The translations under genes and the position numbers were made by a program. Positions 1,546 to 40,798 of a DNA stretch of 64,000 nt are shown here, one piece after another. The notes below the pieces were generated by a model. The model searched no databases and was not told the DNA's origin. It saw only the letters and a program-made list of their open reading frames with translations. The first letter of the stretch is position 1; each line of letters begins with the position of its first letter. The stretch is from NCBI GenBank assembly GCA_021324735.1, contig JAJPIO010000004.1, positions 124,001 to 188,000 of the forward strand, read 5' to 3'. This DNA comes from Bacteroidota bacterium. Its GTDB lineage: Bacteria > Bacteroidota > Ignavibacteria > Palsa-1295.

Positions 1546-3033
1546 CTATCCGATCGTCATCTTGAACGGGAAAAGAATAAAGAATCGATGTTCGGGACTG
1601 ATCTCGTATGCGGGCGCCGGGAAATGCCAATAGTCTAAGCTATGACGCACGAAATTCCAGATGCCGGATGACGATTCGGGAATGATCTTCGAGAAATCGT
1701 AATCGAGCGAGACGAGCCACGTGAGGAAATGAAGATCGTAAATGTCGTGTCCGGGCCGGGTATCGATCGGTCCGAGGCCAGTACCGGAAAGCCCGACCGC
1801 GAGGTTCAGCCATTTGGGCCACCAGGGATTTAGTCCGGCATCTTTCATCATCGAGTGAACGTCCGCGCTCATCCAATAGGATTGTCCCGTATAGTCCTCG
1901 ATGAACGTGAGCTTCTCTCCCATCGCATCCGGCTGATTGTTGAGGTATTTATCACTCGGGAAATACGACCACTTGTATTTGAAATATTTAAAGAACGGCA
2001 CGCGCTGATTGAGAAGATAAAACGCGGCACCAGCAATGTCGGACTTCGCATCACCGCGCGAAAATCCCCACCCCTGCGCAAAGCCATCTTCTAATTCCAC
2101 ATACAGCTCGTAGAGCGCTCCGGAGAATGCGCCAAGCAAGTTCGATTCCACGGTGTCAATACCTGCCCACCGATAAGCCTGATCGAAAAAATACGAAGTA
2201 TAGTACCCTCCGAACATGTGGCCAGCCTTATCGAAATCGTGCTGGTAGTCCGCATCCTCGATCACGTGAAAGGGTCCACGCTGGTTTGCCCACCAGGCAT
2301 TAAGCTGATAGATGTGCAAAGCCGTAACAGCCGCTGCAAGACTTCCCGTTACAATTCCGACGCGTCCCCAATCGGTTGTGGGGCCAAGCTGTATAGCCGA
2401 ATTAGATTGCGAGCGCTGAAATGCGAGCGCAAGATCAGGTCGCTCGCCTACTACACTCCCATTCGGCGACCAACGAATACCGGCTGTTAGTCCGTAGGAG
2501 AATCCGAGATTCTGTCCGACGTACGCAAGTGGCATTGCACGCGCCGCAATTTCGAGATCGGTCGAGTGGCCGAGATCGACAAGAGCACCCAGTTGAATGG
2601 GAAAACTGGCAGAGACGTGACCACGTCCGGTGTCCTGATACACATCGAAGCCTACACCTACACCCACGAATGGGCGAACTTTCAAATTATCACCCAGAAC
2701 ATAGCGAAGGTTACCATGAAAGCCGTAACTTTCAAGAACAAAATCGGTGCGATCGCTACCAATCGGAAAATCGAGTGTCGAGAAATTTCGAAATGCGGCT
2801 AATACATCGTAGGATAAAAGTCCGCGTCCGGCGGGCACTTCATAATAGCCGTCGATGGCGGGACTTACTTGAGTATTACCGATACGATCTGCAACGCCTA
2901 ATCGAAATCCGTAGGCCTCCGGGTGGTTTTGAACGACGCTATCTATCGTTTGGCTATGAACAGAACTGACGGACCACGCACCGAAGAGAAGACCAAGACC
3001 GGTGCAGAAGAAAAAGAAGCGAATCTGTTTCAT
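1546..3033 (-). CDS. Exported DUF2279-like protein with N-terminal barrel-like region
   Basis: The product has 495 residues and a signal peptide (about 1-28, ending at VHSQ). The region from about 40 to 215 is glycine- and aromatic-rich and alternates polar and hydrophobic residues like an outer-membrane barrel. From about 235 the sequence changes to a helical region with FDKAGHMFGGYYTSYFFDQA, the DKxGH signature I associate with DUF2279, followed by further helices and GLSGTGLGP near the C-terminus. It seems to be an outer-membrane or periplasmic protein of unknown function. A shorter protein with the same C-terminal half lies two genes downstream (3762-4766), with a small barrel gene between them. 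The family call rests on motif memory and is moderately sure. Confidence 0.75.
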   Translation of the reverse strand: MKQIRFFFFCTGLGLLFGAWSVSSVHSQTIDSVVQNHPEAYGFRLGVADRIGNTQVSPAIDGYYEVPAGRGLLSYDVLAAFRNFSTLDFPIGSDRTDFVLESYGFHGNLRYVLGDNLKVRPFVGVGVGFDVYQDTGRGHVSASFPIQLGALVDLGHSTDLEIAARAMPLAYVGQNLGFSYGLTAGIRWSPNGSVVGERPDLALAFQRSQSNSAIQLGPTTDWGRVGIVTGSLAAAVTALHIYQLNAWWANQRGPFHVIEDADYQHDFDKAGHMFGGYYTSYFFDQAYRWAGIDTVESNLLGAFSGALYELYVELEDGFAQGWGFSRGDAKSDIAGAAFYLLNQRVPFFKYFKYKWSYFPSDKYLNNQPDAMGEKLTFIEDYTGQSYWMSADVHSMMKDAGLNPWWPKWLNLAVGLSGTGLGPIDTRPGHDIYDLHFLTWLVSLDYDFSKIIPESSSGIWNFVRHSLDYWHFPAPAYEISPEHRFFILFPFKMTIG

Positions 3034-3101
3034 GTATTCGCCTAAAGATTTAACATTTAGTGATAATTCCCAGAGAAGCGAGTGTTCATCGAATGAACAG
3101 C

Positions 3102-3755
3102 TTAGAACCAGAACCGAGCCGAGAGAATCTCATTCGTAGCGTAGACACCCTGCTCTTTTGTCGGATTCGCATAACCACCTAATTGATCGGACCCGATCGT
3201 TTGGAGCGGTGACCCATAACTATAGTGCATTAGTTGAAGCTCACCACCGATGCTAAAATGCGGCGAGAAATAATATTCGACACTCAGTGCCCCTCCTAAG
3301 TAGAAGATCGCATAATGAGTGTCGGTATCCTGAATGCTCGCTTTATCCGAATGCGTCTCATACTCGGAGGACATGATCCCGATCCGAGCTCCGAGACCAA
3401 ACTCGAAATCCTTATCGGTCCGGCGAGTGTAAAAAATTCCAAACCCAGTGCGCACGATCTGGTGATCGTTATACCGCTCGTAACTTCCACCCGGAACTGT
3501 CGAATCCACCACTTGCTCCTGATTGGACTGAAGCATCAGCCCGACTTCCGGCTCGAAGCGAATGTATGGCCCGAATTGAAATGGTATGAAGAAATTAGTC
3601 ATGCCCGCCGTACCAAATTTATTCTGGTCATCTCCGGCGACCGCAAACGGTGAAAAGCTCAGACCCACCCCGATCGATATTTTTTCATCTTGCTGGGCCA
3701 ACACGGGACGGACGAACGAACACAAAATGATAATGGGAAGGACATATCGAAGCAT
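3102..3755 (-). CDS. Small outer-membrane beta-barrel protein
   Basis: The product has 217 residues and a clear signal peptide (about 1-20, cut near VLAQ). The mature part has repeated amphipathic strands (FGPYIRFEPEVGLML, FEFGLGARIGIM, LSVEYYFSPHFSIGGELQLM) and ends in RFWF. A C-terminal aromatic residue is typical of proteins inserted by the BAM complex. Length and strand count suit an 8-stranded OmpA/OmpW-like barrel. It lies between two DUF2279-like genes on the same strand, 6 bp from the stop of the gene before it, so the three probably form one transcription unit. Function is unknown. Confidence 0.75.
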   Translation of the reverse strand: MLRYVLPIIILCSFVRPVLAQQDEKISIGVGLSFSPFAVAGDDQNKFGTAGMTNFFIPFQFGPYIRFEPEVGLMLQSNQEQVVDSTVPGGSYERYNDHQIVRTGFGIFYTRRTDKDFEFGLGARIGIMSSEYETHSDKASIQDTDTHYAIFYLGGALSVEYYFSPHFSIGGELQLMHYSYGSPLQTIGSDQLGGYANPTKEQGVYATNEILSARFWF

Positions 3756-3761
3756 TGAAGT

Positions 3762-4766
3762 TCAGAATTTAACAAATGGATAAGCAAGATAGAAATGGGT
3801 ACCGGCACTTTTACCATCACGAGTTACGCGCCACTCCACACCCGGTGCCGGAAATTTGAAGAAGTCCAATGTTTGCCGAAACCAATTCCATCCGGGCGAG
3901 CCGTCCGGCAGTATCTTAACCAGATCGTAATCCAGCGCCAATGTGATGATGCGTGTCTCAGTCGGATACCCAAGATCGCGTGCACCATATCCAGCAGCGA
4001 TGTTCAGCCAATTCGGCCAGAAGCTCCACTGGGTCAGGTCCTTGATATTAGCACTGATCCAGAAATTCCAGGCGCTGTAATCGTCGATCGGGGTCATGGA
4101 GCCGGCCTTCGGCTGCCCACCGATCCATGGTGCCCAGTAATAATTAAATTTCGGCGAAAGGTCCTGCAGCGTGCGCGAATACTGTGAAGCGGCGAAATAG
4201 ATCACACCTAATGTTTGGGCATACGCTTCGTAGGGTGAAAAGGAAAAATCCGAACCGTACCCATCGAGTATCTCGACATACGTCTGGTATCCTAGTCCTG
4301 CTAACGCGCCATAGAGCGGTGCAAGTTTGTAGCTCACTCCCGAGGCGATAAGAGCCTGCTCCGATACATAGGAGACAAAGTAGCCACCTTCGAAATGTCC
4401 GCCATAATTCGCGCCGAGCGACTCATCCCAGTTATTTCGAATACGAAATGATTGCCCCGAACGCCAGAAGGTCGCTTCCTGATAATAGTGCAATGCCGCG
4501 AGAATTCCGAAATACGCACCGAGATAGGTATAAGCCGGTAACGGATCGATCTTCGTATACCGGCGCGGAGGTGTTCCCGTCAAGGTATACAGTTGATGGT
4601 CCGCCCACCGGTACTGAGACCATGGGATATATTCGGAGGTATCCTTTTGTGCCAGGGTCGAATCGAGAGTGAACGGCGCCTTGACCGTGCTATCGGAAAC
4701 GATGTCTGCTCGGGCTATACCAGCTCCGAGCAGACTAATAAGTATGACTCCAACACGAGTGAGCAT
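3762..4766 (-). CDS. DUF2279-like exported protein (paralogue)
   Basis: The product has 334 residues with a signal peptide (about 1-20, ending IARA). The remainder follows the same plan as the C-terminal half of the 495-residue protein at 1546-3033: a helix with GGHFEGGYFVSYVSEQA, a YVEILDGYGSDFSFS segment matching YVELEDGFAQGWGFS, a DDYSAWNFWISANI segment matching EDYTGQSYWMSADV, and WPNWLNIAAGYG matching WPKWLNLAVGLS. It ends LAYPFVKF, with an aromatic C-terminus. The DKxGH-type motif is altered here to ANYGGH. The gene follows the metal-efflux operon on the same strand with a 26-bp gap to the cusA-like start side. Function is unknown. Confidence 0.75.
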   Translation of the reverse strand: MLTRVGVILISLLGAGIARADIVSDSTVKAPFTLDSTLAQKDTSEYIPWSQYRWADHQLYTLTGTPPRRYTKIDPLPAYTYLGAYFGILAALHYYQEATFWRSGQSFRIRNNWDESLGANYGGHFEGGYFVSYVSEQALIASGVSYKLAPLYGALAGLGYQTYVEILDGYGSDFSFSPYEAYAQTLGVIYFAASQYSRTLQDLSPKFNYYWAPWIGGQPKAGSMTPIDDYSAWNFWISANIKDLTQWSFWPNWLNIAAGYGARDLGYPTETRIITLALDYDLVKILPDGSPGWNWFRQTLDFFKFPAPGVEWRVTRDGKSAGTHFYLAYPFVKF

Positions 4767-4792
4767 GAGTGGTCAAAAGAGATTAGAAGTGA

Positions 4793-7700
4793 CTATGCCG
4801 GTAACGATAACTCCTTCTCCTCCGATACCGAATGATCTGCTTTATCTAATCGAAATAGCTTATACATAACAGGCAGGAGGATAAGGTTGATGAGTGCGGC
4901 AAGGAACATTCCACTTACGATCACGACTGCGAGCGGCTTTTGTGTTTCGGAACCGATACCGCTCGAAACCGCAGCCGGGATCAGCCCGATCATCGCCAGT
5001 ACAGCGACCATAATGATCGGCCTTACGCGCTCGCTTCCGGCAAACTTCAAGAGCTCGTCGGTATTTGAAAATTCCGGTCGATGCCGTTTAACGTAGGTCA
5101 AAAACACGACCCCATTCTGAATGCTGACTCCAAAGAGTGCAATAAAGCCAATACCGGCACTGACCGAAAAGTGAAGCCCAGCGACCAGAAGGCCCAGAAT
5201 ACCACCGATCGTAACGAACGGTACGTTCGAAAGCGTGAGCAGAGCATATCCCCACGAATCGAACAGCGAGTATAGCAGCATAAGAATAAGCAGTAAGCTA
5301 AGCGGAACGACGATCATAAGCCGCTTCATCGCTCGCTGCTGACTTTCAAATTCGCCTCCCCATACCGCATACGAACCGGGCGGCAACTTCACGCTTTTGT
5401 TCACACGCGCCTGTGCATCGGCAACCGCGCCGCCCATATCGCGACCGCGAACGCTGAATTTAATGGCAATATATCGACTATTCGATTCACGATAAATAAA
5501 TGCGGCACCCGGCTGCACGCCGATCGTTGCTACTGCGGAAAGAGGGATCTTCGCACCAGACGCAGTCGATACTTGCAGGCTGTTTACCTTATCCGCCGAG
5601 TTTCGGAATTCCGGTGCGAGGCGCAATACAACATCGAAGTGCTTCTCGCCTTCATAAAGCTGTGTTGCAACGCGTCCGCCGATCGAAGCTTCGATCAGCT
5701 CCTGAATATCGCTAACATTCACGCCATATTGTGCTGCTCGCTGCCGGTCCACCGTAACTTGCAGTACCGGCTGACCTACTTCGCTGAACACACCGACGTC
5801 TGTAATCCCCGGCGTACTATTGAGCACTTCGCGAATCTCCGCAGCTTTCTGTTCGAGAACATTTAGGTCGTCACCAAAGACTTTAACGGCCAGCTCCCCT
5901 TTTACACCGGTCACAGCTTCTTCCACGTTGTCGGAAATAGGCTGCGAGAAATTAAAGTCGATACCGGGGAATGGCGCAAAAGCGGCATTCATATCCCGAA
6001 TTAGCGCCTCTTTTTCTGTATGCCCTTTCCATTCATCCGCCGGTTTTAGATCGACGAAGAACTCGGCATTGAAGAATCCGCTCGCATCTGTGCCATCATC
6101 CGGACGCCCAAGCTGCGAGACCACATCTTTGACCTCATCGAACTTCATTAGGGTGGCACGAATATGCGCCGTGGTGGTATCGGCCTCCGTCGGACTGATA
6201 CTCATTGGCATCGTTGCGCGAACCCATAAGGCGCCTTCATTTAAGTGTGGCAAAAATTCCGTGCCTAAATATTGGCTCAGATAAAAACTGACCAGTAATA
6301 TCGCGAGCGATATTCCCATTACCACCTTACCTTTTCGCAGGCAGACGTCAAGTAAACGATCGTATCGCTTATGTAACCACTCTACAATCGGACTCTTCTC
6401 GTGCAGGCGGCCTTTGAGCAGATCGAACGACAGCACTGGTACCAGCGTAAGACTGAGAAGCATTGCACCGATGAGCGCAAAACCCAGCGTGTACGCAAGC
6501 GGCGAGAACATGCGGCCTTCGATCTGCTGGAAGGAGAAGATCGGGATCATGGCCGCGATGATAATAAGGATCGCGAAAAAGATCGGTGTCGACACTTCGG
6601 ACGCCGTCGACCGGATGATCGATTCGCGCGCATTCTGATCGGTAAGTTGCTGCGCCGCTAACGTCGCAAAGATCGCTTCCACCATAATAACGGCACCATC
6701 GATGATAACGCCGAAGTCGATAGCACCCAGTGAGAGCAGATTGGCGGACATCCCTCGCCAATACATCAGGACAAATGCGAACAGCAGCGAGAGCGGCACG
6801 ATGAGCGCTGCAATAAGCGCGCTGCGAACATTGCCGAGGAAAACAAATAGGATCACGATCACCAGCAGCATACCGACTACAAGGTTATGCAGCACCGTAT
6901 GCGTTGTTACCCCTACCAGCTCGGCTCGATCGTAATACGGGACGATCTTTACATCTTTGGGAAGAATTTTAGAATTCAATTCTTCTGCTTTTGCTTCGAC
7001 TCGCGCAATAACTTCCGAAGCATTCTCTCCACGGCGCATATCGACAATGCCTTCGACGACATCGCCATCATACCGCTCGCCGACTTTCCCAAGGCGAACT
7101 GCGTGGCTGATCTGTACGCTGCCTACTTGGGCCACTTTGAGCGGAGTCCCATTATAGTTCGTGATAACGACATTTGCAATGTCGTCGGTATCTTTCAGCA
7201 AGCCTACACCACGAAAAACGTAACCTTGAGAGCCTTGCTCGACGATACTTCCACCCGCGTTCGCATTATTGGCGGCAAGAGCGTCCGATATCTGTTTGAT
7301 CGATACACCGTAATAAGCCAGCTTATGCGGATCGATATCGATCTCATATTGCTTTGTGGGACCACCAAAAGAATTTACATCCACAACCCCGTCTACCGAC
7401 TTGAATTGCCGCTCCAAGAGCCAATCCTCGATCGTTTTTAGCTCTAATGGCGATCGTGTTTTACTCTTTAATGTATAGCGGAATATTTCTCCGGTCGGCC
7501 CCATCTCCGGCGAAAGCTGAGGCGTAACGCCATCCGGCAACGTGACATTCTGTAGCTTCTCGGTGGTCTTTGTGCGTGCGAAAAAGTCATCCGCCTTATC
7601 GTCGAAGGTCAGCGTGACCACCGATAGCCCGAACAGCGAGATCGAACGAAGACTCATGAGGTGCGGCACACCGTTCATCTCCGTCTCGATGGGCACCGTG

Positions 7701-27627: not shown

Positions 27628-29034
27628 ATGCTATCTTTTCGAAGTATCGCATTTTTTGCTCTTGTTTGGTTAGCAGTCGTACCTGAGAGCCAGGCCCAGT
27701 CCATCTGGCATGTTCGTCGTACACCAGGAAATAAGCGCTGTTGGGACGAATACACTGCCATCAGCTGCTATAAGGGAATCTGTACGGTGGCAGGTATCGC
27801 ACAAAGAGACACAGCCCCATTCAGTTGGCTCGTCTTCGAACGAAGCACTGATGAAGGACGGACATGGATGGAACAGACCCCCGCACCATTGGGAAGTTTT
27901 TGTGGCAATTGTACCTCGATTACCAAGCTCCAGCAGATTGACTCACTGCATACGGTGGCACAGGCCGATTCCAGTTGGACCACTCAGAACGGGAATACCG
28001 GGACCATTCAAACAATCAGTTATTTCATTGCTACAACCGACGGTGGGAAAACATGGTCGCGACCACATTGGCCCGACTCCTTATGGGTGATGGATTTTCA
28101 CTTTTCCAGTCCCTTGACCGGTATCTTTGTCACCAATAATAGCATCTATTGTACATCCGATGGCGGCGAACGTTGGGAGAAGCAGATCGTCCCCGTTCGA
28201 GGCGGACCGGAAGCCTGCCACTCGTATGGCGACGGAATGTTTCGTGTTTGGGGTCACGCACATGGGCCGCTTTATACAACACGAGATAACTGGAGCAGCT
28301 ACGATACTACTCAGCCGTGTTACGACTCGAGTGTCGATGCTGCATCTAAAACTCTCTTTGGATCGTGCAATTTTGGATCGGGCGATACAATAATGTGCTA
28401 TGGAATTCACTTTTCGGCACTAAATCCGAGTATCCACTATGGCTCCCTTGCTAGAACTACGGATGGTGGAAGCAGTTGGACTCATTTTCGAATCGCAGAT
28501 AGCATTAATGCACCATCTGGTAATGGAATCCTCTATACAACAAGCCTCGACCATGATACGGTGTATGCTGCCGGCGAGAGTTTTAATCATTGGATATTGC
28601 GTAGTACTGACCGCGGAGCAACATGGTCCATCGATACGCTTCTACTCGATACATCCATGAATGTACTTGAGACGGATGGCATTGCGATGACCGGCGATGG
28701 TCATCCCCTGGCCTTATTTTCTTTTAGGGATCTCTTTATAAATCCAACGTTAATTTTCCGCCGCGAGCAAGATAATTCTATTGTTACAACCACGCTATCA
28801 GCACTACATCCGTTTGCCGTTTATCCGAATCCTTCAACCGATTGGGTAAACGTGCGTTCGTCCACCCCATTACGGAGAGTAGTTATTCGCGATCTTCTTG
28901 GCAGGCCAGTTCTTTACGGTATGGCAGATGTAGGCGGAGAAGCCAGACTCGATGTTTCGAAGCTTCCCGCTGGCATGTACGAACTCGAAACCGAGGGTGA
29001 GAATAGTACGGGAAAGATTTCTATCTTACGATAG
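27628..29034 (+). CDS. T9SS-secreted Asp-box (BNR) propeller protein
   Basis: The product has 468 residues with a signal peptide (1-23, ending SQAQ). Five Asp-box repeats of the form S/T-x-D-x-G-x-x-W are visible: STDEGRTWME, TTDGGKTWSR, TSDGGERWEK, TTDGGSSWTH and STDRGATWSI. This suggests a beta-propeller. Residues from about 390 (FAVYPNPSTDWVNV, then RDLLGRPVLYG, then LPAGMYEL) are a T9SS type A sorting domain. The protein should be exported across the outer membrane and released or surface-attached. The ligand or enzymatic activity is unknown. It is rich in Cys compared with its relatives here. Confidence 0.85.
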   Translation: MLSFRSIAFFALVWLAVVPESQAQSIWHVRRTPGNKRCWDEYTAISCYKGICTVAGIAQRDTAPFSWLVFERSTDEGRTWMEQTPAPLGSFCGNCTSITKLQQIDSLHTVAQADSSWTTQNGNTGTIQTISYFIATTDGGKTWSRPHWPDSLWVMDFHFSSPLTGIFVTNNSIYCTSDGGERWEKQIVPVRGGPEACHSYGDGMFRVWGHAHGPLYTTRDNWSSYDTTQPCYDSSVDAASKTLFGSCNFGSGDTIMCYGIHFSALNPSIHYGSLARTTDGGSSWTHFRIADSINAPSGNGILYTTSLDHDTVYAAGESFNHWILRSTDRGATWSIDTLLLDTSMNVLETDGIAMTGDGHPLALFSFRDLFINPTLIFRREQDNSIVTTTLSALHPFAVYPNPSTDWVNVRSSTPLRRVVIRDLLGRPVLYGMADVGGEARLDVSKLPAGMYELETEGENSTGKISILR

Positions 29035-29633: not shown

Positions 29634-32201
29634 TTACTCGATCGTGATCGTCTTCGTGACCGACACGCCATCGGCGGTGAGGCGCACAAAGTGCTGGCCA
29701 GCCGGAAGGCCCGAGAAATCGAACGACTCATCGTGGCTTCCTTTCGCTATCCACTCGTTTGCGAGCGTACGTTCCTGGCGCCCCATGACGTCATAGACCT
29801 CGATCGAAGCGTGTGCATCATCGGCAAGCGAGAACTGAATATTCGAATGTGCAACACCGGATGGTACCACACTCGGATAAATGCTCGATATCGCAACGCC
29901 CGAGTTTGCCGCCCCAGCATTTACTGCATTGTTGCCAGAAGAGATCGGTGGAAGTTGATTGATATCGATGTAGAACATACCGCGACCGTATGTACCTGCA
30001 ACAAGATAGTGGCCACGCACGCGAAGTGAGGTCACCATTACGAGCGGCATACCATCCGCAACCGGATACCAGTTCTTACCACCGTCAGCCGAGCGAAGCA
30101 CACCATAGTCGTTACCGATGAAGATGGTACCGGAATTACCATCATAGGCAACGCGGCGGTAGTTGAGCGCGGGAAGATTCGTGGCCGGGGCGGTCCAGGT
30201 GTGGCCCGTATCGGTCGATATGAAGAAATGCTTCGAGCCGGTGCCGGCAACCGTCATAAAGAGATGCGTCTCATCGGAAGGATCCGACGTGATCGAAGTG
30301 GGGCGAGCATTGAGGCTGGTCTTCGTACGCGTCCAGGTATGTCCCTGGTCAATACTATAATACATCGTATTGCTCGTCGTACCGATATAGATATTTTGCG
30401 GGTTCGCCTTTGCGAGATGCACGGTCGTAACAGAGCCGGAGATCGCGTTGCCAACATTACCGTTGTTCGTTACCTGCGGAAAATCATTACCGAACGTTGA
30501 ACCACCGTCCGTCGAAAGAAAGAGATTCTGGTTTCCACAAACGGCAACGATATTAGCATCGTAATCGGATACATCGTACTCCATATAGAACGGTGCATGT
30601 TCGCCCTGCGTGATCGGCGTGCTCTCTAATATATTTATTGGCTGCGGGTTATCCGGCCAGTTATTTCCACCATCGCGCGAATGATAGAGCACATCGTAGA
30701 CGTACGTGCCATAAATAGAGAGCCCGTTCGCATTCGGGTCGGCTGAAATAATGGTCGTACCACCATCACCGCCTACGATCGACGTATAGTACGACGAGGA
30801 ACCGACGGTATACTTGCTCATGCCGTTATCCTGCGCGCCGGCGGCAAAGAACGCGACCTTGTTATTCGCATCGATGCTCGCATCGCCGCCCACGAACTGG
30901 AACGTGCCCAGCGTTGCATTCATGTTTTGCGACCACGACTGCCCATTGCTCTCGCTATGATAGACACCGCCATCCGTCAATGCAAACAGCGTCGGAGGAT
31001 TGACATAGGGATCGTACTTGAGCACATGAATATCGGCATGTGTGAAGTCCGAACTCACGTTAGAACTCGTCCAGACAGTGCGCTTCTGCATGCCAATACC
31101 GGCGCGGCTCGATGTGTAGATATCGAGGCCACCGACAGCTATGATCGAAGGGTTCTGCGGATTTACCGCAACGGCATTCGCATACTGCGGTTGCTGGCCG
31201 AGATAATTCTGGTTCTGACTCGCCGTCTGCCATGTGGCGCCGCTATCGGTCGAGATCTGAAGAATGGATGTCTGACTCCACGTTCCATTACTTACATAGA
31301 TCGTGTCGGACGAACTCTTCGACATTGCGATCGTCGTGAGCAGGCCGGTGCCTTGAAAACTCGTGGTGTACCACGTCTTACCAGAGTCGATCGACTTCTT
31401 TATTGTACCCGCTGCGGCTGCATAAAGCACCGCCGGATTATTCGGATCGAGCGCGAGCGATGTCGTGCCGCCCAGAGCGAGCACGGTCGTCCATGTTTGG
31501 CCGCCATCCGTCGAACGACGGACGCCGTTGGCGGCGACATAGATAATATTCGGATTACCCGCATTCACCTCGAGCTGGCTGATCGGTGCCTGTGGCGAAT
31601 TCGTAAGCAATGTCCAATTAAGGCCGCCATCTACTGACTTATAGACGCCGACACCATTCGTGTTATTACCACCACCGATATCCGATAACGGAGCGCCTGT
31701 GCCGGCATAGATCGTCTTCGAATTGGTCGGATCGACCGCAACGCCGCCGATAACGAGCGTCTTCCACGAGCCATCACTGAGCGATACCCAGTTCGCGCCA
31801 AAGTCGGTCGATTTCCACAATCCGCCGGTGATCGTACCGAGGTAAAGCGTCTTCGAATTCATCGGATCGAACGCGATGCACGATGCACGCCCGCTCACAC
31901 GGCCATCCTGCGATTTCGACACCTCGATCCACGCCGCGCTGCTCGACGCCTTCATCGCCGGCGTGTTATCCATATGGCGCATTTGCTCGAAGCCGTTCGC
32001 CTGGAGCGCACCATAGTTCGCCTCGCCCATCGGATTGGTAAAATTCTCATACCACAGCTTGGCGTCCTCCGCGTGGTTCTCCTCAACCTCCGGATACTTG
32101 CCTTCAGGAATATGCTTTTGTGCCACGGCCGAGCTTGAACCAAGCACCCAGCCGGCAAACATGAGCGATACAAATCCTATATATTTAATGCGCTTATTCA
32201 A
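29634..32201 (-). CDS. T9SS-secreted Asp-box (BNR/VPS10-like) propeller protein
   Basis: The product has 855 residues with a signal peptide (1-28, ending AVAQ). At least ten Asp-box repeats run through the protein, such as STDFGANWVS, SVDGGLNWTL, STDGGQTWTT, SRDGGNNWPD, SIDQGHTWTR and SADGGKNWYP. Each is often preceded by DPTNSKTIYAGT-like strands. This is the arrangement of sortilin/xyloglucanase-type double propellers. The last 85 residues (ISSIYPSVVPSG, VYDVMGRQERTL, GLPAGQHFVRL) are a T9SS sorting domain. It is related to the protein at the right end of the window (60888-64000). Confidence 0.88.
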   Translation of the reverse strand: MNKRIKYIGFVSLMFAGWVLGSSSAVAQKHIPEGKYPEVEENHAEDAKLWYENFTNPMGEANYGALQANGFEQMRHMDNTPAMKASSSAAWIEVSKSQDGRVSGRASCIAFDPMNSKTLYLGTITGGLWKSTDFGANWVSLSDGSWKTLVIGGVAVDPTNSKTIYAGTGAPLSDIGGGNNTNGVGVYKSVDGGLNWTLLTNSPQAPISQLEVNAGNPNIIYVAANGVRRSTDGGQTWTTVLALGGTTSLALDPNNPAVLYAAAAGTIKKSIDSGKTWYTTSFQGTGLLTTIAMSKSSSDTIYVSNGTWSQTSILQISTDSGATWQTASQNQNYLGQQPQYANAVAVNPQNPSIIAVGGLDIYTSSRAGIGMQKRTVWTSSNVSSDFTHADIHVLKYDPYVNPPTLFALTDGGVYHSESNGQSWSQNMNATLGTFQFVGGDASIDANNKVAFFAAGAQDNGMSKYTVGSSSYYTSIVGGDGGTTIISADPNANGLSIYGTYVYDVLYHSRDGGNNWPDNPQPINILESTPITQGEHAPFYMEYDVSDYDANIVAVCGNQNLFLSTDGGSTFGNDFPQVTNNGNVGNAISGSVTTVHLAKANPQNIYIGTTSNTMYYSIDQGHTWTRTKTSLNARPTSITSDPSDETHLFMTVAGTGSKHFFISTDTGHTWTAPATNLPALNYRRVAYDGNSGTIFIGNDYGVLRSADGGKNWYPVADGMPLVMVTSLRVRGHYLVAGTYGRGMFYIDINQLPPISSGNNAVNAGAANSGVAISSIYPSVVPSGVAHSNIQFSLADDAHASIEVYDVMGRQERTLANEWIAKGSHDESFDFSGLPAGQHFVRLTADGVSVTKTITIE

Positions 32202-32468: not shown

Positions 32469-35400
32469 CTACTCTTTGACAAGCTTCACGGCTTTGCCCA
32501 TAATAGAATTCTGTACCTGAACATAATAGACTCCGCTTGGAAGCTTTGAGCAATTAAAGTTGACACAGAAGCCCATATCGCCTTGAGGAGTATCGTTATA
32601 TAGCAGTGCGACCTGCTCACCTGCCGCATTAACGACCGCAATGGTTGCCGGCAAGCCTTCCGGCAATTCTTCAACGCACACTGTTGCTTTGTCTCGGGCT
32701 GGATTTGGATGCGCGGTCACAGTTAACCCGTTTTGCATACTGAATTCAGTTCTATTTTTCTGCGCATTGGTTTTGGGCGCTGGGCCATCAACTGTGTCTT
32801 GTAGCCAAATGATATCTCGATTGACGCGAACTAGGTACGTATTAAGAAGGGAGTCGAATCCCATTGAGGATGGATCTTCTGGAATCGTAAGTCGCTGCAA
32901 ATTCCATTGAGCATAGATTGAATCACTATATGAGTGATAGAGATATAATACACTATCGTAACAAGCTACTGCTGCGCTGATCTGTCCAAGTGTTTCATAA
33001 GCGCTTCCCTTCGCCATCCATAACCCGCTAACAAGTTCTGGTGCTACTCCAGGCTCTGCAATTACAGTGTTGTAGTCGGTAATTGCCACCTGAATATAAG
33101 CCGTTGCAGAATCGGTTAAAGTTGCAAACCATAATTCATCCGAAGCCTTTTGTAGTCTTATGTTGACATCATTAGTATCTGAACGCAGCATTCCACTTGC
33201 ATTCCAGAAAATAGTTCTAAGCGTGTCGCTTCCCGATGACACCGTTGTCCAAAGAAGCAAAGATGGATAGGGATCTGCAATTGTCGGGTCACAATCAGGA
33301 GCATCGGTATGATCCTGACAATCAGTATGGCTGTGCCCGGATGGAGTTGGTACATTCTGAGGAGATCCGTATGCCGTAACCCCTTGGGTTATAGCACTTC
33401 CTCCTGGTTCAAAATCATTGAAAGAAACGTCCATGAGGTAGCTTAATCCATGATCCATATTCAAAAGATGAGTACTATTGTTTGGACCGAAATCATTATA
33501 GCCACATCTTATGACTAAATTACCGCCATGCACGCCTTTATTGCCTCCTCGAACAAGCGCCGCAGTCTTATGAGGATTCGGTGATATCGCATCAAGATGA
33601 CACTTGCCGTAATCGAAGAATATGTAGTTTATGTAGTTAGAAGAGTTGTCATCCAGTTGGATCAAACTTCCAGCCCCTAAAGACCACCCACCCCATGAGC
33701 TATAACTTAAGAGCCCATTATTACGAACGAGACAATTACTATTCGACTGCGCAGTTATGCACCAGTTATCGTCGAACGAAAACGAATTGTCAAATAAGAA
33801 ACCATGGGAATGGTTCACGAACATGATACCACCATTCTTACAATATGAAATATCCGAATTGCAGTACGTTGAGCGACAATTGCTATTATATATTCCATAC
33901 CATTTAAGCGGGGACGGATTCCCCGATATATCCTTGCCAAAGATGTTCGAATTTCCCAGAACGCTTTGACAATAATAGCTATTGCATCCGGTCCGTGCGT
34001 TGTGGAATCGGCACTGTTCAATCATCACCTGTTGTAAATTACTACCCCAAAAACAATCGAATATGCGATTACCAAATGAATTGGTTGATTCATCGAAAAA
34101 GCGGCAATCGGTTAACCAGGCTGTGGTAACTTCTGGTAATGAATAAATCAGATTCTTTGAATAATTACAATAAAGCATTTGAGTGGAAAACCCTTGAGCG
34201 TAGAACTCTGAATTTTCCGAAAAGCAATCACCAACGAAGTGGTCTTTGGAAGCATCATACGTGAAGATACCTACGTCGCTATCATCAGTGTATTGCATAC
34301 TGATAAATGCAGGGGTAGGCATGGCACCCGGTGTTTCGATAATGGGTCTTACGTCGATTCCCGCAAGCTGGTTGACTTGCCCGCATGACGTAATTCCTCC
34401 GGTTAGAATACATCGTGATGTTGGCGAACCCGCAAAAGAAATATTCCCATAACATACATTTCGAAGTGACTTATTAAGCGTCAATCTTCCACCGGAGAGA
34501 CACGTGAATGCTCCTCCGTAATCAATAAGGAATTGATCAAGGCGAAGATATGCCCCCCCTTGAATCAGAACTTGACCACCAGACATAATATGTAGCTTTG
34601 CATCGATGTCAACAGGTAGGGGTCCAACTATAGTTAGATTTCCGTAAACCTTTACCTCCTTCGAAGAAGAAATAATTTTTGAACTCGCCTCCATAGTGAC
34701 ACTACCGTTAATAACGAAGTCCTCATTTCCATCGAGATGGATTTCCCCGCCAGGTTGAATTATCAAGTTGCTTCCGTCATCATCAGCAATGTATCCATAG
34801 TTTTGAAATTTTACCACACCATAAATTTCACCGGCATGGTAATTACCTAAATGAAGCTGTCCATGATTCATGCTGTTTGAAGAATAAAGGATAAGGTCGT
34901 CAGCCTTAATGTCACCGGTGATGCAAACATCTTGAACGTACCCTGCCACCAAAATTTTTGCAGTACCATGACCCCCATCCGCCGCGTCATTCGACGTTAT
35001 ATTGCCCTCGTTTCCATCTCCGGACTCCAAAAGACCGTCAATCGCAAGTATACAACCATCAGGAACTGTAAGCGTAGAACCATTTGAAACCAATGTTAGC
35101 CCTTGATTATAATGTGGCCAAATTGGTATTTGATTTGGAATCGGATTTCCACCGGCATTTATAACTAGATTTGAACAATTTGTACTGCTGGCATCTTTCC
35201 ACGCACCCATGTGCATTAACCATTGGGCTTTTTCATTTCTTACTCCATTGGTAGTAAAATCAAGAGTTTGAGAAGACGAATAACTAGGATCAGCTTTTTT
35301 AGAAATGGAGTGTGCAACAGCTCTGTAGGCGTTGACCTGTCCGAAGCCCATGCGCTGACACCATGATCGGTTAAGGGGATCTACGGGCCCTTGATTTTCG

Positions 35401-37313
35401 TAATTCAAGTGGTAGGCGTTCCCTTGCTGATCCGTAGTGGGCTGTCTATAGTAGACACCGCCAAGCTGATATCTATCGCCTGACCATAGTTGATCGGGAA
35501 TTTTGTCTGCTGTAAATGTAAGTATATCGTACGCTTTTCGATGAACGTCTGTAAGATCGGACGGCTTTGAGTCATCACAAGACAACCATCGATTAACCGA
35601 ACGCATCAACGCGACTACTCCAGAAACGAGCGGCGCGGAATACGATGTTCCGGATGTGCCGACGGAGTAACCACTTGGATTCGTTGGATCTATATCCAAC
35701 ATGTCAACACCCGGTGCAACGAGATCCATATATGCCTCAGCTTTATCCTCTCTCCGGAAGTCCGTATTAGTAGTGGTTGAAAATTTGTTATGACCAGGAG
35801 AAAATGCCCAGCCAAACGTGAAAGGCTCGGCATCCCCAGTCCAATGATAAAGATAAGTACTAGGATCTGGTTCTTCGTCGGGATAGAGTAAGCAATTACT
35901 TTTCGTCGCTCGGGCGCAGCCAGCAATTATTCCGTCACTAGTCGAGCCAACCGCAATCGGTTTTACGTCCTGAGCAGGTGTAGCACCAAGCCAAACGTCT
36001 GAGGCTGGATATATTCTTGCAGGCCTCAATTCCGTTACCTGTTTATTGTCAAAGTCCGTAACGGGCGTTGATAATCCCCAACCTTGATCAAGGTCATTTC
36101 CAGCACATACCACTACAACCGTCCCATTCTGCATTGGCTGTCGATATCTTTGATATTCCGCGTTACGTGGATCATCGAGCGCATAGGGTGTTATATTTGG
36201 GCCAATTAGTCCCCCCCTGCTCGCATTATCCACGTCCAAGTGCGTGGTTACGTTGTTTGCAATGTGGTCAACATCAGTCGTTGCAGGGAACTCGACAGCA
36301 AGCGCGGTAGCACCATATGCGCTTCCCAGCATTACACCTCCTTGAACTGCATTATTACCTAACCCAACTGCACTTGCGGTAACAGTACAACCGTGATAAA
36401 TAGGGGAAGATCCATAGGCATTGAACGCATAAGTAACAGGTCCATCTCCTTGATTTTGTGGGTCTCCAGCGACCTGATGACCCGGTGCGAGATAAAGGAA
36501 ATTGCCATTTATATTAGCGGAAGTAATTGCTGAGATATCGGGCGAACTAATATTAGTTGTTGCACTCGTGCTCCAATCAACATCATCAATACCAATAAAT
36601 ATACCGAGTTGCCCAGAATTGACCTCATCATAGGTTTTACCGGACGTAATCTCCCAAGCCATTGGACACTTCATTTTATATAGTGCCCATTCCCATCCAA
36701 GTCTATGAAAAGCAGAGTTCCCATATCTGCAAACATCTTCAGCGGGTGCAGCAGACTCGACATCGGTAAGCTTTACACCAGGTATCAATCCTTGATCGTT
36801 TGGAAGGAATGCCGGCACCATCGGATACGGCTCTCTCCACGTCACTTTGGGAATTTGTGTTACAAACCCCATAGCAAGACCTGCCCACGTGTATGATAGA
36901 AATCGAATCTTGAAATAGACGCTCGGGCTACCTGTCGTGTCATTCGGTGTTATCTTGCGGAGAACGAACGGACCTACGCTATCATAGAGCGCCTTGAAGC
37001 CGGCGCGAACGTCAGTCAACGTTGTATCAATTGCAGTCCACGGCACTTCCAGAATCGTATCCGCAGGTGCCAGTGGTACATGAATCATTCCTGTCCGATA
37101 AAAACCAATCTGAATACCTTTCTTAATCCAAACGTTGTCATTGATGGGGCTTTTGGTTGTATCAACCATTACCGAGTCGGGATTATATAAGGCGTTTCGA
37201 AGGCTATCAGGAAAGTAAAGCCTAAGAGTTGAAGGTGGAGTCTGCGATCTTGCGGTGAACGCGAACAATAGTAGAACAACGGTGAACCATGCACCAGTCT
37301 TCATATTCGTCAA
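32469..37313 (-). CDS. T9SS-secreted subtilisin-like (S8) serine protease with beta-helix region
   Basis: The product has 1614 residues with a signal peptide (1-23). Residues about 29-165 form an N-terminal module shared with the gene just upstream. The S8 domain follows: Asp243/244 in GIDDVDW, His307 in YHGCTVTASAVG, the oxyanion Asn406 in CAGND, and Ser557 in GTSGTSYSAP. From about 720 to 1330 there are short Asn/Gly-rich repeating strands (for example LHLGNYHAGEIYG and GNSNIFGKDISGNP) like a right-handed beta-helix. The end (VTAHPNPARDKATV ... LPSGVYYVQV) is a T9SS sorting domain. It is probably a surface or secreted protease with its N-module acting as pro-domain (inference). Confidence 0.9.
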   Translation of the reverse strand: MTNMKTGAWFTVVLLLFAFTARSQTPPSTLRLYFPDSLRNALYNPDSVMVDTTKSPINDNVWIKKGIQIGFYRTGMIHVPLAPADTILEVPWTAIDTTLTDVRAGFKALYDSVGPFVLRKITPNDTTGSPSVYFKIRFLSYTWAGLAMGFVTQIPKVTWREPYPMVPAFLPNDQGLIPGVKLTDVESAAPAEDVCRYGNSAFHRLGWEWALYKMKCPMAWEITSGKTYDEVNSGQLGIFIGIDDVDWSTSATTNISSPDISAITSANINGNFLYLAPGHQVAGDPQNQGDGPVTYAFNAYGSSPIYHGCTVTASAVGLGNNAVQGGVMLGSAYGATALAVEFPATTDVDHIANNVTTHLDVDNASRGGLIGPNITPYALDDPRNAEYQRYRQPMQNGTVVVVCAGNDLDQGWGLSTPVTDFDNKQVTELRPARIYPASDVWLGATPAQDVKPIAVGSTSDGIIAGCARATKSNCLLYPDEEPDPSTYLYHWTGDAEPFTFGWAFSPGHNKFSTTTNTDFRREDKAEAYMDLVAPGVDMLDIDPTNPSGYSVGTSGTSYSAPLVSGVVALMRSVNRWLSCDDSKPSDLTDVHRKAYDILTFTADKIPDQLWSGDRYQLGGVYYRQPTTDQQGNAYHLNYENQGPVDPLNRSWCQRMGFGQVNAYRAVAHSISKKADPSYSSSQTLDFTTNGVRNEKAQWLMHMGAWKDASSTNCSNLVINAGGNPIPNQIPIWPHYNQGLTLVSNGSTLTVPDGCILAIDGLLESGDGNEGNITSNDAADGGHGTAKILVAGYVQDVCITGDIKADDLILYSSNSMNHGQLHLGNYHAGEIYGVVKFQNYGYIADDDGSNLIIQPGGEIHLDGNEDFVINGSVTMEASSKIISSSKEVKVYGNLTIVGPLPVDIDAKLHIMSGGQVLIQGGAYLRLDQFLIDYGGAFTCLSGGRLTLNKSLRNVCYGNISFAGSPTSRCILTGGITSCGQVNQLAGIDVRPIIETPGAMPTPAFISMQYTDDSDVGIFTYDASKDHFVGDCFSENSEFYAQGFSTQMLYCNYSKNLIYSLPEVTTAWLTDCRFFDESTNSFGNRIFDCFWGSNLQQVMIEQCRFHNARTGCNSYYCQSVLGNSNIFGKDISGNPSPLKWYGIYNSNCRSTYCNSDISYCKNGGIMFVNHSHGFLFDNSFSFDDNWCITAQSNSNCLVRNNGLLSYSSWGGWSLGAGSLIQLDDNSSNYINYIFFDYGKCHLDAISPNPHKTAALVRGGNKGVHGGNLVIRCGYNDFGPNNSTHLLNMDHGLSYLMDVSFNDFEPGGSAITQGVTAYGSPQNVPTPSGHSHTDCQDHTDAPDCDPTIADPYPSLLLWTTVSSGSDTLRTIFWNASGMLRSDTNDVNIRLQKASDELWFATLTDSATAYIQVAITDYNTVIAEPGVAPELVSGLWMAKGSAYETLGQISAAVACYDSVLYLYHSYSDSIYAQWNLQRLTIPEDPSSMGFDSLLNTYLVRVNRDIIWLQDTVDGPAPKTNAQKNRTEFSMQNGLTVTAHPNPARDKATVCVEELPEGLPATIAVVNAAGEQVALLYNDTPQGDMGFCVNFNCSKLPSGVYYVQVQNSIMGKAVKLVKE
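36832..37116. repeat. 285-bp direct repeat, copy A (inside subtilase N-module)
   Basis: It matches copy B at 37646-37930 with constant spacing of 814 bp and no gaps. I count 9 mismatches in 285 (about 97% identity), nearly all silent. Outside these limits the two genes diverge quickly. The repeat codes for the core of the shared N-module. Confidence 0.9.
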
Positions 37314-37335
37314 TTTTAAGAACAGTGAAAAAGTA

Positions 37336-38142
37336 TCAGCGACCAGAAGTTACAATAACTGGTTTTTGAATACCACCAACACTAAGGAAATAGACCCCAT
37401 AGGGTAGTCGTGAGACATCAAACTTATAGAGTCCATCCTTCACAGTAATAACCCTAAGCTCTAAAGCATGACCCAGGAGATCGTAAAGCTTTGGATCGGC
37501 TAAGAGAGTACTATTTTCAGGTGCTTCAATTTGAGATATTGAAACAAACACCTCGCGATCTGCGGGCTGTGGGAATATCGATAAAACATCAGATGTAATT
37601 GTTTCTTTAACTCCATTATGACCAGCCGGAAGCGTTGGGAATGGATCTCTCCACGTCACTTTGGGAATTTGTGTTACAAACCCCATAGCAAGACCTGCCC
37701 ATGTGTATGATAGAAATCGAATCTTGAAATAGACGCTCGGGCTACCTGTCGTGTCATTCGGTGTTATCTTGCGCAGAACAAATGGACCTACGCTATCATA
37801 GAGCGCCTTGAAACCAGCGCGAACGTCAGCCAACGTTGTATCAATTGCAGTCCACGGCACTTCCAGAATCGTATCCGCAGGTGCCAGTGGTACATGAATC
37901 ATTCCTGTCCGATAAAAGCCGATCTGAATAAGCTTTAGCCATGCATTATTGTTAACGTCCTGAGGTGATTTGATGTGACAGGTATCAATCATCATCGAAT
38001 CTCGGTTATAGAGCGCATTGTTGGTGGAATCTGAGAAGTAAAGGCGAAGACATGTAGTGTCAAGTTGTGGCGTTTGACACACACACACACGAGTATAGAA
38101 GCACAAAAGCGCGACTAACAGAACAATATACTTCATTTGCAC
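37336..38142 (-). CDS. Stand-alone subtilase N-module with T9SS sorting domain
   Basis: The product has 268 residues. The signal peptide (1-22) ends at CVCQ and is encoded over a (GT)7 tract. Residues about 31-172 match the N-terminal module of the adjacent subtilase; the shared segment from IQIGFYRTGM to PKVTWR differs at only one residue (Ala for Thr). There is no protease domain. After a short linker comes a T9SS sorting domain (SIFPQPADREVFV, YDLLGHALEL, LPYGVYFLSV). It precedes the subtilase by 22 bp and is likely co-transcribed. By analogy with S8 pro-domains it could be an inhibitor or chaperone of the protease, but this is inference. Confidence 0.85.
   Translation of the reverse strand: MQMKYIVLLVALLCFYTRVCVCQTPQLDTTCLRLYFSDSTNNALYNRDSMMIDTCHIKSPQDVNNNAWLKLIQIGFYRTGMIHVPLAPADTILEVPWTAIDTTLADVRAGFKALYDSVGPFVLRKITPNDTTGSPSVYFKIRFLSYTWAGLAMGFVTQIPKVTWRDPFPTLPAGHNGVKETITSDVLSIFPQPADREVFVSISQIEAPENSTLLADPKLYDLLGHALELRVITVKDGLYKFDVSRLPYGVYFLSVGGIQKPVIVTSGR
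37646..37930. repeat. 285-bp direct repeat, copy B (in stand-alone module gene)
   Basis: This is the partner of copy A at 36832-37116, about 97% identical over the full length with 9 substitutions and no indel. The high silent-site identity points to recent duplication or gene conversion. Confidence 0.9.
38077..38090. repeat. Dinucleotide tract (AC)7 inside coding sequence
   Basis: Seven AC units on the plus strand lie inside the signal-peptide codons of the 268-residue protein (minus-strand reading Arg-Val-Cys-Val-Cys-Gln). A change by one unit would shift the frame at the very start of the gene. Confidence 0.85.
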
Positions 38143-40195: not shown

Positions 40196-40609
40196 TCACT
40201 TTTTGATCTTCGAGACATACTCGAGGGCAGCTTCCGCAAAGCCGCTCCATTTACTGGCGCTTGCCTCGGGCACCTGCACCCATTCCTTCATCGGGCGTCT
40301 ACCGGCTGGATCGAAGAGCTTTGCGCCCGCGAGCGATATAGCCTTCTTATGGTCCTCGCCGGTGAGCTTAAAGACCATGGCATCCTGGTACAGTCCTGCA
40401 AATGCTTTTCCATTGATCTTCAGGGCCGGCATTCCGAACATGGCGCTCATCTGCACATCGTTATTGCTGGCGAGTTTTTGAGCGATCTCCTCATACGCTG
40501 CAGTCGCCGTAAGGCCCGAAGTCTTGCTTGTGCTTTTGGATGCCTTCGTTGATTTAACCTTGGACGCCTTCGTTGATTTAACCTTGGATGCCTTCGCTGA
40601 TTTAACCAT
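40196..40609 (-). CDS. TfoX N-terminal-domain-like protein with Lys/Ser repeat tail
   Basis: A start at 40609 (MVKSAKASK) gives 137 residues; 40654 would add 15. Residues 1-30 are an 8-residue repeat (KVKSTKAS) encoded by 2.9 copies of a 24-bp unit. The rest contains MSAMFGMPALKINGKAFAGL, LTGEDHKKAISLAGAKLFDP and RPMKEWVQVP. This is the pattern of the small TfoX-N / YjbR-like domain. Function is unknown; the basic tail suggests contact with nucleic acid (inference). It converges on the carboxylase gene with 3 bp between the stop codons. Confidence 0.7.
   Translation of the reverse strand: MVKSAKASKVKSTKASKVKSTKASKSTSKTSGLTATAAYEEIAQKLASNNDVQMSAMFGMPALKINGKAFAGLYQDAMVFKLTGEDHKKAISLAGAKLFDPAGRRPMKEWVQVPEASASKWSGFAEAALEYVSKIKK
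40538..40607. repeat. 24-bp tandem repeat, 2.9 copies
   Basis: Units at 40538-40561, 40562-40585 and 40586-40607 share GGAYGCCTTCGYTGATTTAA, with two variable positions. The length is a multiple of three, so copy changes would only alter the Lys/Ser tail of the TfoX-N-like protein. Confidence 0.85.
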
Positions 40610-40798
40610 CAAAGAGAATTCTATCATTAAGGGAAATATTCTCCCACTAAACATTCCTCATCGGTAAGAATTCTTACGAGATTTGGCCCTAAAAATAGCC
40701 TATCTTTGCTATTTCAACAAAAAATCATCGATGGCATGGAACTGGTCTTATTGAGACTGAGTCTTAGTAAGTGATTCTTCAACACCAGTTCTTTATTC

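Follow-up and report, generated by a model that had tools for sequence, protein, structure and literature searches.

Why should a bacterium that secretes a subtilase also encode, immediately upstream of it, a second secreted protein with nearly the same N-terminal module and no protease attached? This arrangement occurs in the stretch of 64,000 nucleotides analysed here, referred to as the window, where it comprises the following features:

37336..38142, minus strand: stand-alone module protein gene, 268 aa, likely ATG at 38136; signal peptide, module and T9SS tail
38074..38136, minus strand: signal peptide of the short protein, MKYIVLLVALLCFYTRVCVCQ, read by eye from the translation
37624..38061, minus strand: module region of the short gene
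37648..37917, minus strand: near-identical core in the short gene, 97.4% against 36834-37103
37375..37578, minus strand: C-terminal T9SS sorting domain in the short protein, scoring under the curated cut-offs
32469..37313, minus strand: subtilase gene, 1614 aa, likely ATG at 37304
36807..37238, minus strand: subtilase copy of the module, at the prodomain position
36834..37103, minus strand: near-identical core in the subtilase gene
35304..36695, minus strand: S8 catalytic domain, with Asp (GIDDVD), His (YHGCTV) and Ser (GTSYSAP)
32502..32708, minus strand: T9SS sorting domain of the subtilase, 28.2 bits (Pfam cut-off 27)

The short gene lies directly upstream of the subtilase gene, with 22 bp between them (~31 bp when counted to the likely ATG), and these two genes hold the only module copies in this genome at the search sensitivity used. 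The subtilase consists of a signal peptide, the module, the S8 domain, a long region with a weak beta-helix match, a TPR-like stretch and a T9SS tail. Signal peptides were read by eye from the translations, and in the same reading no lipobox was seen at the end of that of the short protein (TRVCVCQ-TPQ).

T9SS tails were assessed with the type A families PF18962 and TIGR04183. The tail of the short protein is recognisable and falls under both cut-offs (22.9 of 27 bits in Pfam and 19.2 of 23 bits in NCBIfam), while stand-alone relatives exceed them clearly, at 47.1, 39.1 and 34.4 bits. SprA is also present in the genome, with at least 150 matches to T9SS tails, and we infer that both the short protein and the protease are exported by the T9SS.

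The two genes share a direct repeat of 300 nt (36811-37110 and 37625-37924), which is 94% identical over its full length. In its strict core, corresponding to residues 71-160 of the subtilase and 76-165 of the short protein, 7 of 270 bases differ in the codon alignment, six of them silently, and a wider block of 294 bp has 14 differing bases, of which 11 are silent; this similarity is far beyond chance. On the 5' side of the core the proteins are homologous and far more diverged, with ~35-70% of the bases different per bin throughout the signal peptide and the first ~45 module residues. On the 3' side they are unrelated in detail, one continuing into the subtilase domain and the other into the T9SS tail. 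A preliminary description of this DNA had reported a near-identical module in both genes with differing flanks, and a short protein made of that module and a T9SS tail without a protease. Both observations are borne out: the two reading frames lie where it placed them, they agree at 97.4% over 270 bp, and a T9SS tail, below cut-off, is the only match found in the short protein besides the module.

The module family has a conserved cysteine pair in its N-terminal part (CLxL...DTC), which the short protein keeps (37624-38061). Both cysteines are lost from the subtilase copy (36807-37238), a joint loss as would be expected of a disulfide.

The module and S8 prodomains

The window subtilase matches PF00082 with 56.3 bits (cut-off 21.8), and the catalytic Asp, His and Ser, intact in the window, are invariant across its subfamily. 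The module is followed by a linker and then by a typical S8-domain start (AWEITxGK). The module profile also matches ordinary S8 proteases of the class, 670-1030 aa in length, exactly before the motif PNDPxY...AWDITTG. When compared with hhalign to the prodomain profile of these ordinary proteases (A7), the module aligned with a probability of 96.9% and an E value of 1.4e-10, on a template of only three sequences. All matches of profile A7 precede S8 domains. Resting mainly on sequence profile and position, the evidence indicates that the module is homologous to S8 prodomains; its predicted fold agrees and is a common one.

The module has no Pfam match to Inhibitor_I9 (PF05922) up to an E value of 10, and hhalign gave a probability of 0.1% against the I9 domains of the class. 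Membership in I9 by sequence was thus ruled out, in agreement with the preliminary description, which had recognised no I9 family in it. Whereas S8 propeptides of this type (MEROPS I9) are ~80 residues long, the module has ~140 and no such Pfam or profile-profile match; it has an extra N-terminal part, which bears the cysteine pair in most members. The best explanation of these comparisons is that the module represents the N-terminal prodomain of one T9SS-exported S8 subfamily, belonging to a sequence family other than I9. The earlier reading of it as a protease pro-module therefore gains from its position before an intact Asp/His/Ser set and from its profile kinship to S8 prodomains of the class, while the roles suggested with it, as inhibitor, chaperone or decoy, stay an inference.

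The predicted fold of the module is consistent with this assignment. The AlphaFold2 model of the module has strands and helices in the same order as S8 propeptides, and comparison with the PDB returned only generic ferredoxin-like arrangements, with Z scores of at most 4.8. No I9 entry was among the PDB matches listed, which by itself excludes nothing, and the predicted fold alone is weak evidence for propeptide identity. In the model of the fused protein the S8 domain is clear (Z 27); the linker has a pLDDT of 36-50, and the module has no reliable placement and does not superpose on the propeptide of Tk-subtilisin.

In the subtilases of two related genomes (G055 and G104, loci L027 and L081) the catalytic Ser is kept, but the oxyanion-hole Asn seems to lie in a changed stretch, where the alignment is uncertain; these two proteases may be weak or inactive.

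Distribution and settings of the module family

The module profile found matches in 16 of the 245 genomes of the window's class. Of 12 matches in a sample of 395 genomes from across the phylum, 11 fell in the same class, the twelfth being a weak match in an unrelated-looking protein. A single-sequence scan of named genomes found no module relatives, and an alignment of close modules used as query on these genomes found 13 loci, in records named Ignavibacteria, Ignavibacteriae and unclassified Bacteroidetes MAGs. In the genomes searched, the family was thus found almost only in Ignavibacteria-type Bacteroidota, to judge from these profile matches. Carriage by phages or plasmids was considered and rejected, as no relatives were found in viral contigs (searched with profile A3) or in plasmids (searched with the window module). 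The related genomes are mostly MAGs in which several module loci lie at contig ends, and calls of absence or truncation are to be read with care.

The module occurs in two main settings. In one, it forms the N-terminal domain of proteases from a distinct S8 subfamily, ~1450-1780 aa in length, which occur in the window, G055, G104, G213, G224 and locus L113 and are cut or frame-broken in G015, G046, G110 and locus L064. All subfamily proteases with upstream sequence on their contig carry the module or its remains; the contig of G006, which has the protease, ends before the module position. Degraded protease remains with the module were found in G001, G004 and L102. In the other setting, it forms stand-alone proteins of ~250-300 aa, made of a signal peptide, the module and a T9SS tail and encoded singly or in tandem arrays (G001, G004, G005, G011, G197, G213, G224, L102, L103, L105 and L109; the form in G127 has 434 aa). 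Two modules stand in tandem before one T9SS tail in proteins from two different families of the class (L021:9731-10990 and L065:6615-7835).

Stand-alone modules outnumber fused ones by 28 to 11 in a tree of 39 modules. Nine genomes with stand-alone modules were searched for the subfamily protease, and three have an intact one, two have fragments and four have none at the sensitivity used; most of the genomes with stand-alone modules and no subfamily protease keep other S8 proteases at weaker similarity. The preliminary description had named, as an outcome that would count against its proposal, a module occurring mostly without S8 domains in unrelated proteins. The first half of that outcome was found, the module being mostly stand-alone, but nearly all of the non-protease cases are the same minimal protein of signal peptide, module and tail. 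Many stand-alone genes of G213 and G224 sit solitary among unrelated genes. Neighbours of ~547 aa that recur beside solitary copies were considered as a constant partner and rejected, as they belong to unrelated families (a C69 peptidase and an SLT-LysM protein).

Some copies depart from these settings. A stand-alone relative of 430 aa (L079:6305-7597) has an extra domain of ~130 residues between the module and the T9SS tail, and in L069:6643-7353 and L088:5760-6293, both broken or cut by the contig end, the module is preceded by another kind of secreted N-terminal domain (YNFDEINSLKI type). Near a contig end in G015, module and protease lie in different frames (L026:7429-7761 and 3003-7436), which may reflect a frameshift, a sequencing error or a broken gene.

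Paired loci, probable gene conversion and selection

At three separate loci, including some in distant relatives, a subtilase frame with the module has a stand-alone gene immediately upstream: in the window, in L113 (JACPWH010000277), where proteins of 262 aa and 1622 aa (from ATG) are encoded 13 bp apart, and in L064 (G224), where the protease frame stops after 463 aa, near the contig end. In the tree of 39 modules each of these same-locus pairs forms a sister pair, with supports of 100/98, 100/99 and 100/99 (window, L113 and L064, respectively). Fused and stand-alone modules are otherwise interspersed, with 10 changes of label, where shuffled labels give 9.9 on average; well-supported branches force at least five of these changes. 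The tails tell a different story from the modules: those of the window and L113 short proteins match the tails of other stand-alone proteins best, and the tail of the window protease matches that of another protease, while the L113 protease tail, with a weak best match, is an exception. Modules thus appear to follow the locus and tails mostly the architecture, a pattern best accounted for by gene conversion between neighbouring old paralogues. Patchy identical blocks are also seen in L022, L023 and L102.

The preliminary description had regarded the module as duplicated. A fresh tandem duplication was ruled out by the diverged signal peptides and T9SS tails, the latter mostly grouping with the same architecture elsewhere, and an internal deletion of a duplicated protease was ruled out on the same grounds. 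The flanks of the core are unequal, the T9SS tails have separate ancestries and the pairing recurs in other genomes, all of which instead points to a pair of old paralogues in the window that were homogenised over the module by local gene conversion.

Within the core, the window pair has a dN/dS of 0.055, the L113 pair one of 0.13 and the L064 pair one of 0.125; between two stand-alone genes it ranges from 0.16 to ~0.6. For the window core, neutrality of both copies was rejected (P = 0.0016) and a model with one relaxed copy fits (P ~0.2). One relaxed copy would likewise account for the differences seen in the L113 and L064 pairs, and selection on both partners of these pairs is not proven. 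As a class, the stand-alone genes nonetheless seem to be kept, because their frames of ~270 codons stay open at high divergence; in simulations of neutral drift, 0.35 substitutions per site produced 6 to 12 stops.

A candidate exported inhibitor and its alternatives

We lean, with little more than an even chance of being right, towards the explanation that the short protein, exported by the T9SS, inhibits the neighbouring protease in the manner of a propeptide, with gene conversion keeping the two copies alike. The short gene would supply the prodomain of the protease without the protease, on its own signal peptide and T9SS tail, and the free module would most likely bind the catalytic domain of its neighbour as the built-in prodomain does. 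Binding would keep the protease silent in the periplasm during its passage, limit it on the cell surface, or both. Latency in the periplasm would matter because T9SS cargo crosses this compartment before secretion. Gene conversion, probably aided by selection for matching binding surfaces, would keep the free copy and the prodomain alike; recognition between propeptide and protease can be selective (PMC10580911), which would favour such matching. Six of the nine genomes with stand-alone modules have no intact subfamily protease, and this counts against an inhibitor, as do the solitary stand-alone genes of G213 and G224, the absence of an I9 sequence match, the generic nature of the PDB matches and the fused model, which does not dock the module at the site of the Tk-subtilisin propeptide. 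We speculate that, where that protease is absent, stand-alone proteins might act on other S8 proteases or on foreign ones. More tentatively, and as a possibility that we would not yet call probable, the family may amount to a bacterial system specific to this lineage, where repeated conversion keeps a protease matched to a copy of its prodomain that is exported separately; inhibitor and protease would then evolve in concert, and the additional stand-alone proteins would serve as a repertoire against other proteases.

Several other explanations must be weighed against an exported inhibitor. The excess of stand-alone over fused copies, the tandem arrays and double-module proteins (L021, L065 and L102) and the occurrence of stand-alone genes without the subfamily protease or a constant neighbour would suit a fast-changing family of surface proteins, such as adhesins, decoys or capture proteins for foreign proteases, which lies near the subtilase incidentally, the latter carrying a related N-terminal domain. 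We consider this rather unlikely, although worth keeping in mind: the module is present in every intact subfamily protease, it is related to the prodomains of other S8 proteases, and at three independent loci the copy next to the protease matches that of its neighbour. There is a smaller chance that tandem duplication and recombination around a protease locus rich in repeats left the short genes behind as by-products that do little or nothing themselves. Such an origin would explain the fragments and broken copies beside intact ones (L022 3749-4207, L025, L069, L075 and L102), the patchiness of the identical blocks and the fit of the window pair to one relaxed copy; however, the many full-length frames at high divergence would be very unlikely for neutral copies according to the simulation, dN/dS is 0.16-0.25 in some stand-alone pairs, and the signal peptide and T9SS tail are retained across families.

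It is improbable, in our view, that the short protein helps folding in trans, as an extra prodomain with which the protease folds in the periplasm. S8 propeptides do act as chaperones (PMC10580911, PMC6993865), and the gene pair recurs in the same orientation with the short gene first, but the protease has its own copy in cis and does not obviously need a second, a T9SS tail would take the helper out of the periplasm, and stand-alone genes persist where the protease is gone. Finally, several module loci of other genomes lie at contig ends, as might happen if near-identity were an assembly error in a repeat; we would be greatly surprised by such an outcome, as the window copies differ at 7-14 positions, mostly silent, inside one long contig, and the same pairing is found in other assemblies (L113 and L064).

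An inhibitor encoded beside its protease has counterparts elsewhere. Potempins of Tannerella forsythia are small secreted proteins encoded directly upstream of T9SS-exported KLIKK proteases, and are reported to be specific inhibitors of the co-expressed protease (PMC7296668). By description, the window resembles these pairs, for example PotC with the S8 protease mirolase (PDB 8ehe), in having the gene of a small secreted protein directly upstream of that of a T9SS-exported protease; 8ehe is also among the closest solved S8 structures to the window protease model. Potempins, however, are lipoproteins, while the window product has a T9SS-type tail and copies the prodomain of the protease itself. 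In Plasmodium, SUB1-ProM is a stand-alone propeptide-like protein encoded beside subtilases, one of which it inhibits (PMC6993865). It shares a stand-alone, propeptide-like form with TgMIC5 and with the stand-alone members grouped with I9 (POIA1, the yeast peptidase B inhibitor and Arabidopsis SPI-1), as does the short protein with its predicted propeptide-like fold. Inhibitors of the SUB1-ProM and POIA1 type are eukaryotic, are not exported by a T9SS and are not known to share near-identity with their target's propeptide, and, unlike those grouped with I9, the window module has no detectable I9 sequence match. Closer to the window in protease type, the KP-43 peptidases of Bergeyella cardium are putative T9SS cargo with an inhibitory non-I9 propeptide (PMC11982257). 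They resemble the window protease by description, as T9SS-type S8 proteases with a non-I9 propeptide, and the excerpted account of that work describes no stand-alone propeptide copy (PMC11982257).

In the open-access literature, the stand-alone propeptide-like inhibitors that we found described are eukaryotic, and the known protease-inhibitor pairs of Bacteroidota, the potempins, are lipoproteins. In the window, by comparison, the candidate inhibitor is the protease's own prodomain, it apparently takes the same export route, and the pair seems to be kept alike locus by locus. The locus therefore offers a testable case of how a propeptide acting in cis becomes a regulator acting in trans, and of how an enzyme and its likely inhibitor evolve in concert.

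Two further features of the window were recorded. Two BNR-repeat proteins with T9SS tails adjoin the protease locus (27628-29034, plus strand, and 29634-32201, minus strand). A gene with a TfoX_N domain (40196-40654, minus strand) contains, near its N-terminus, three tandem repeats of 24 bp (40536-40607), which encode a Lys/Ser/Thr-rich repeat.
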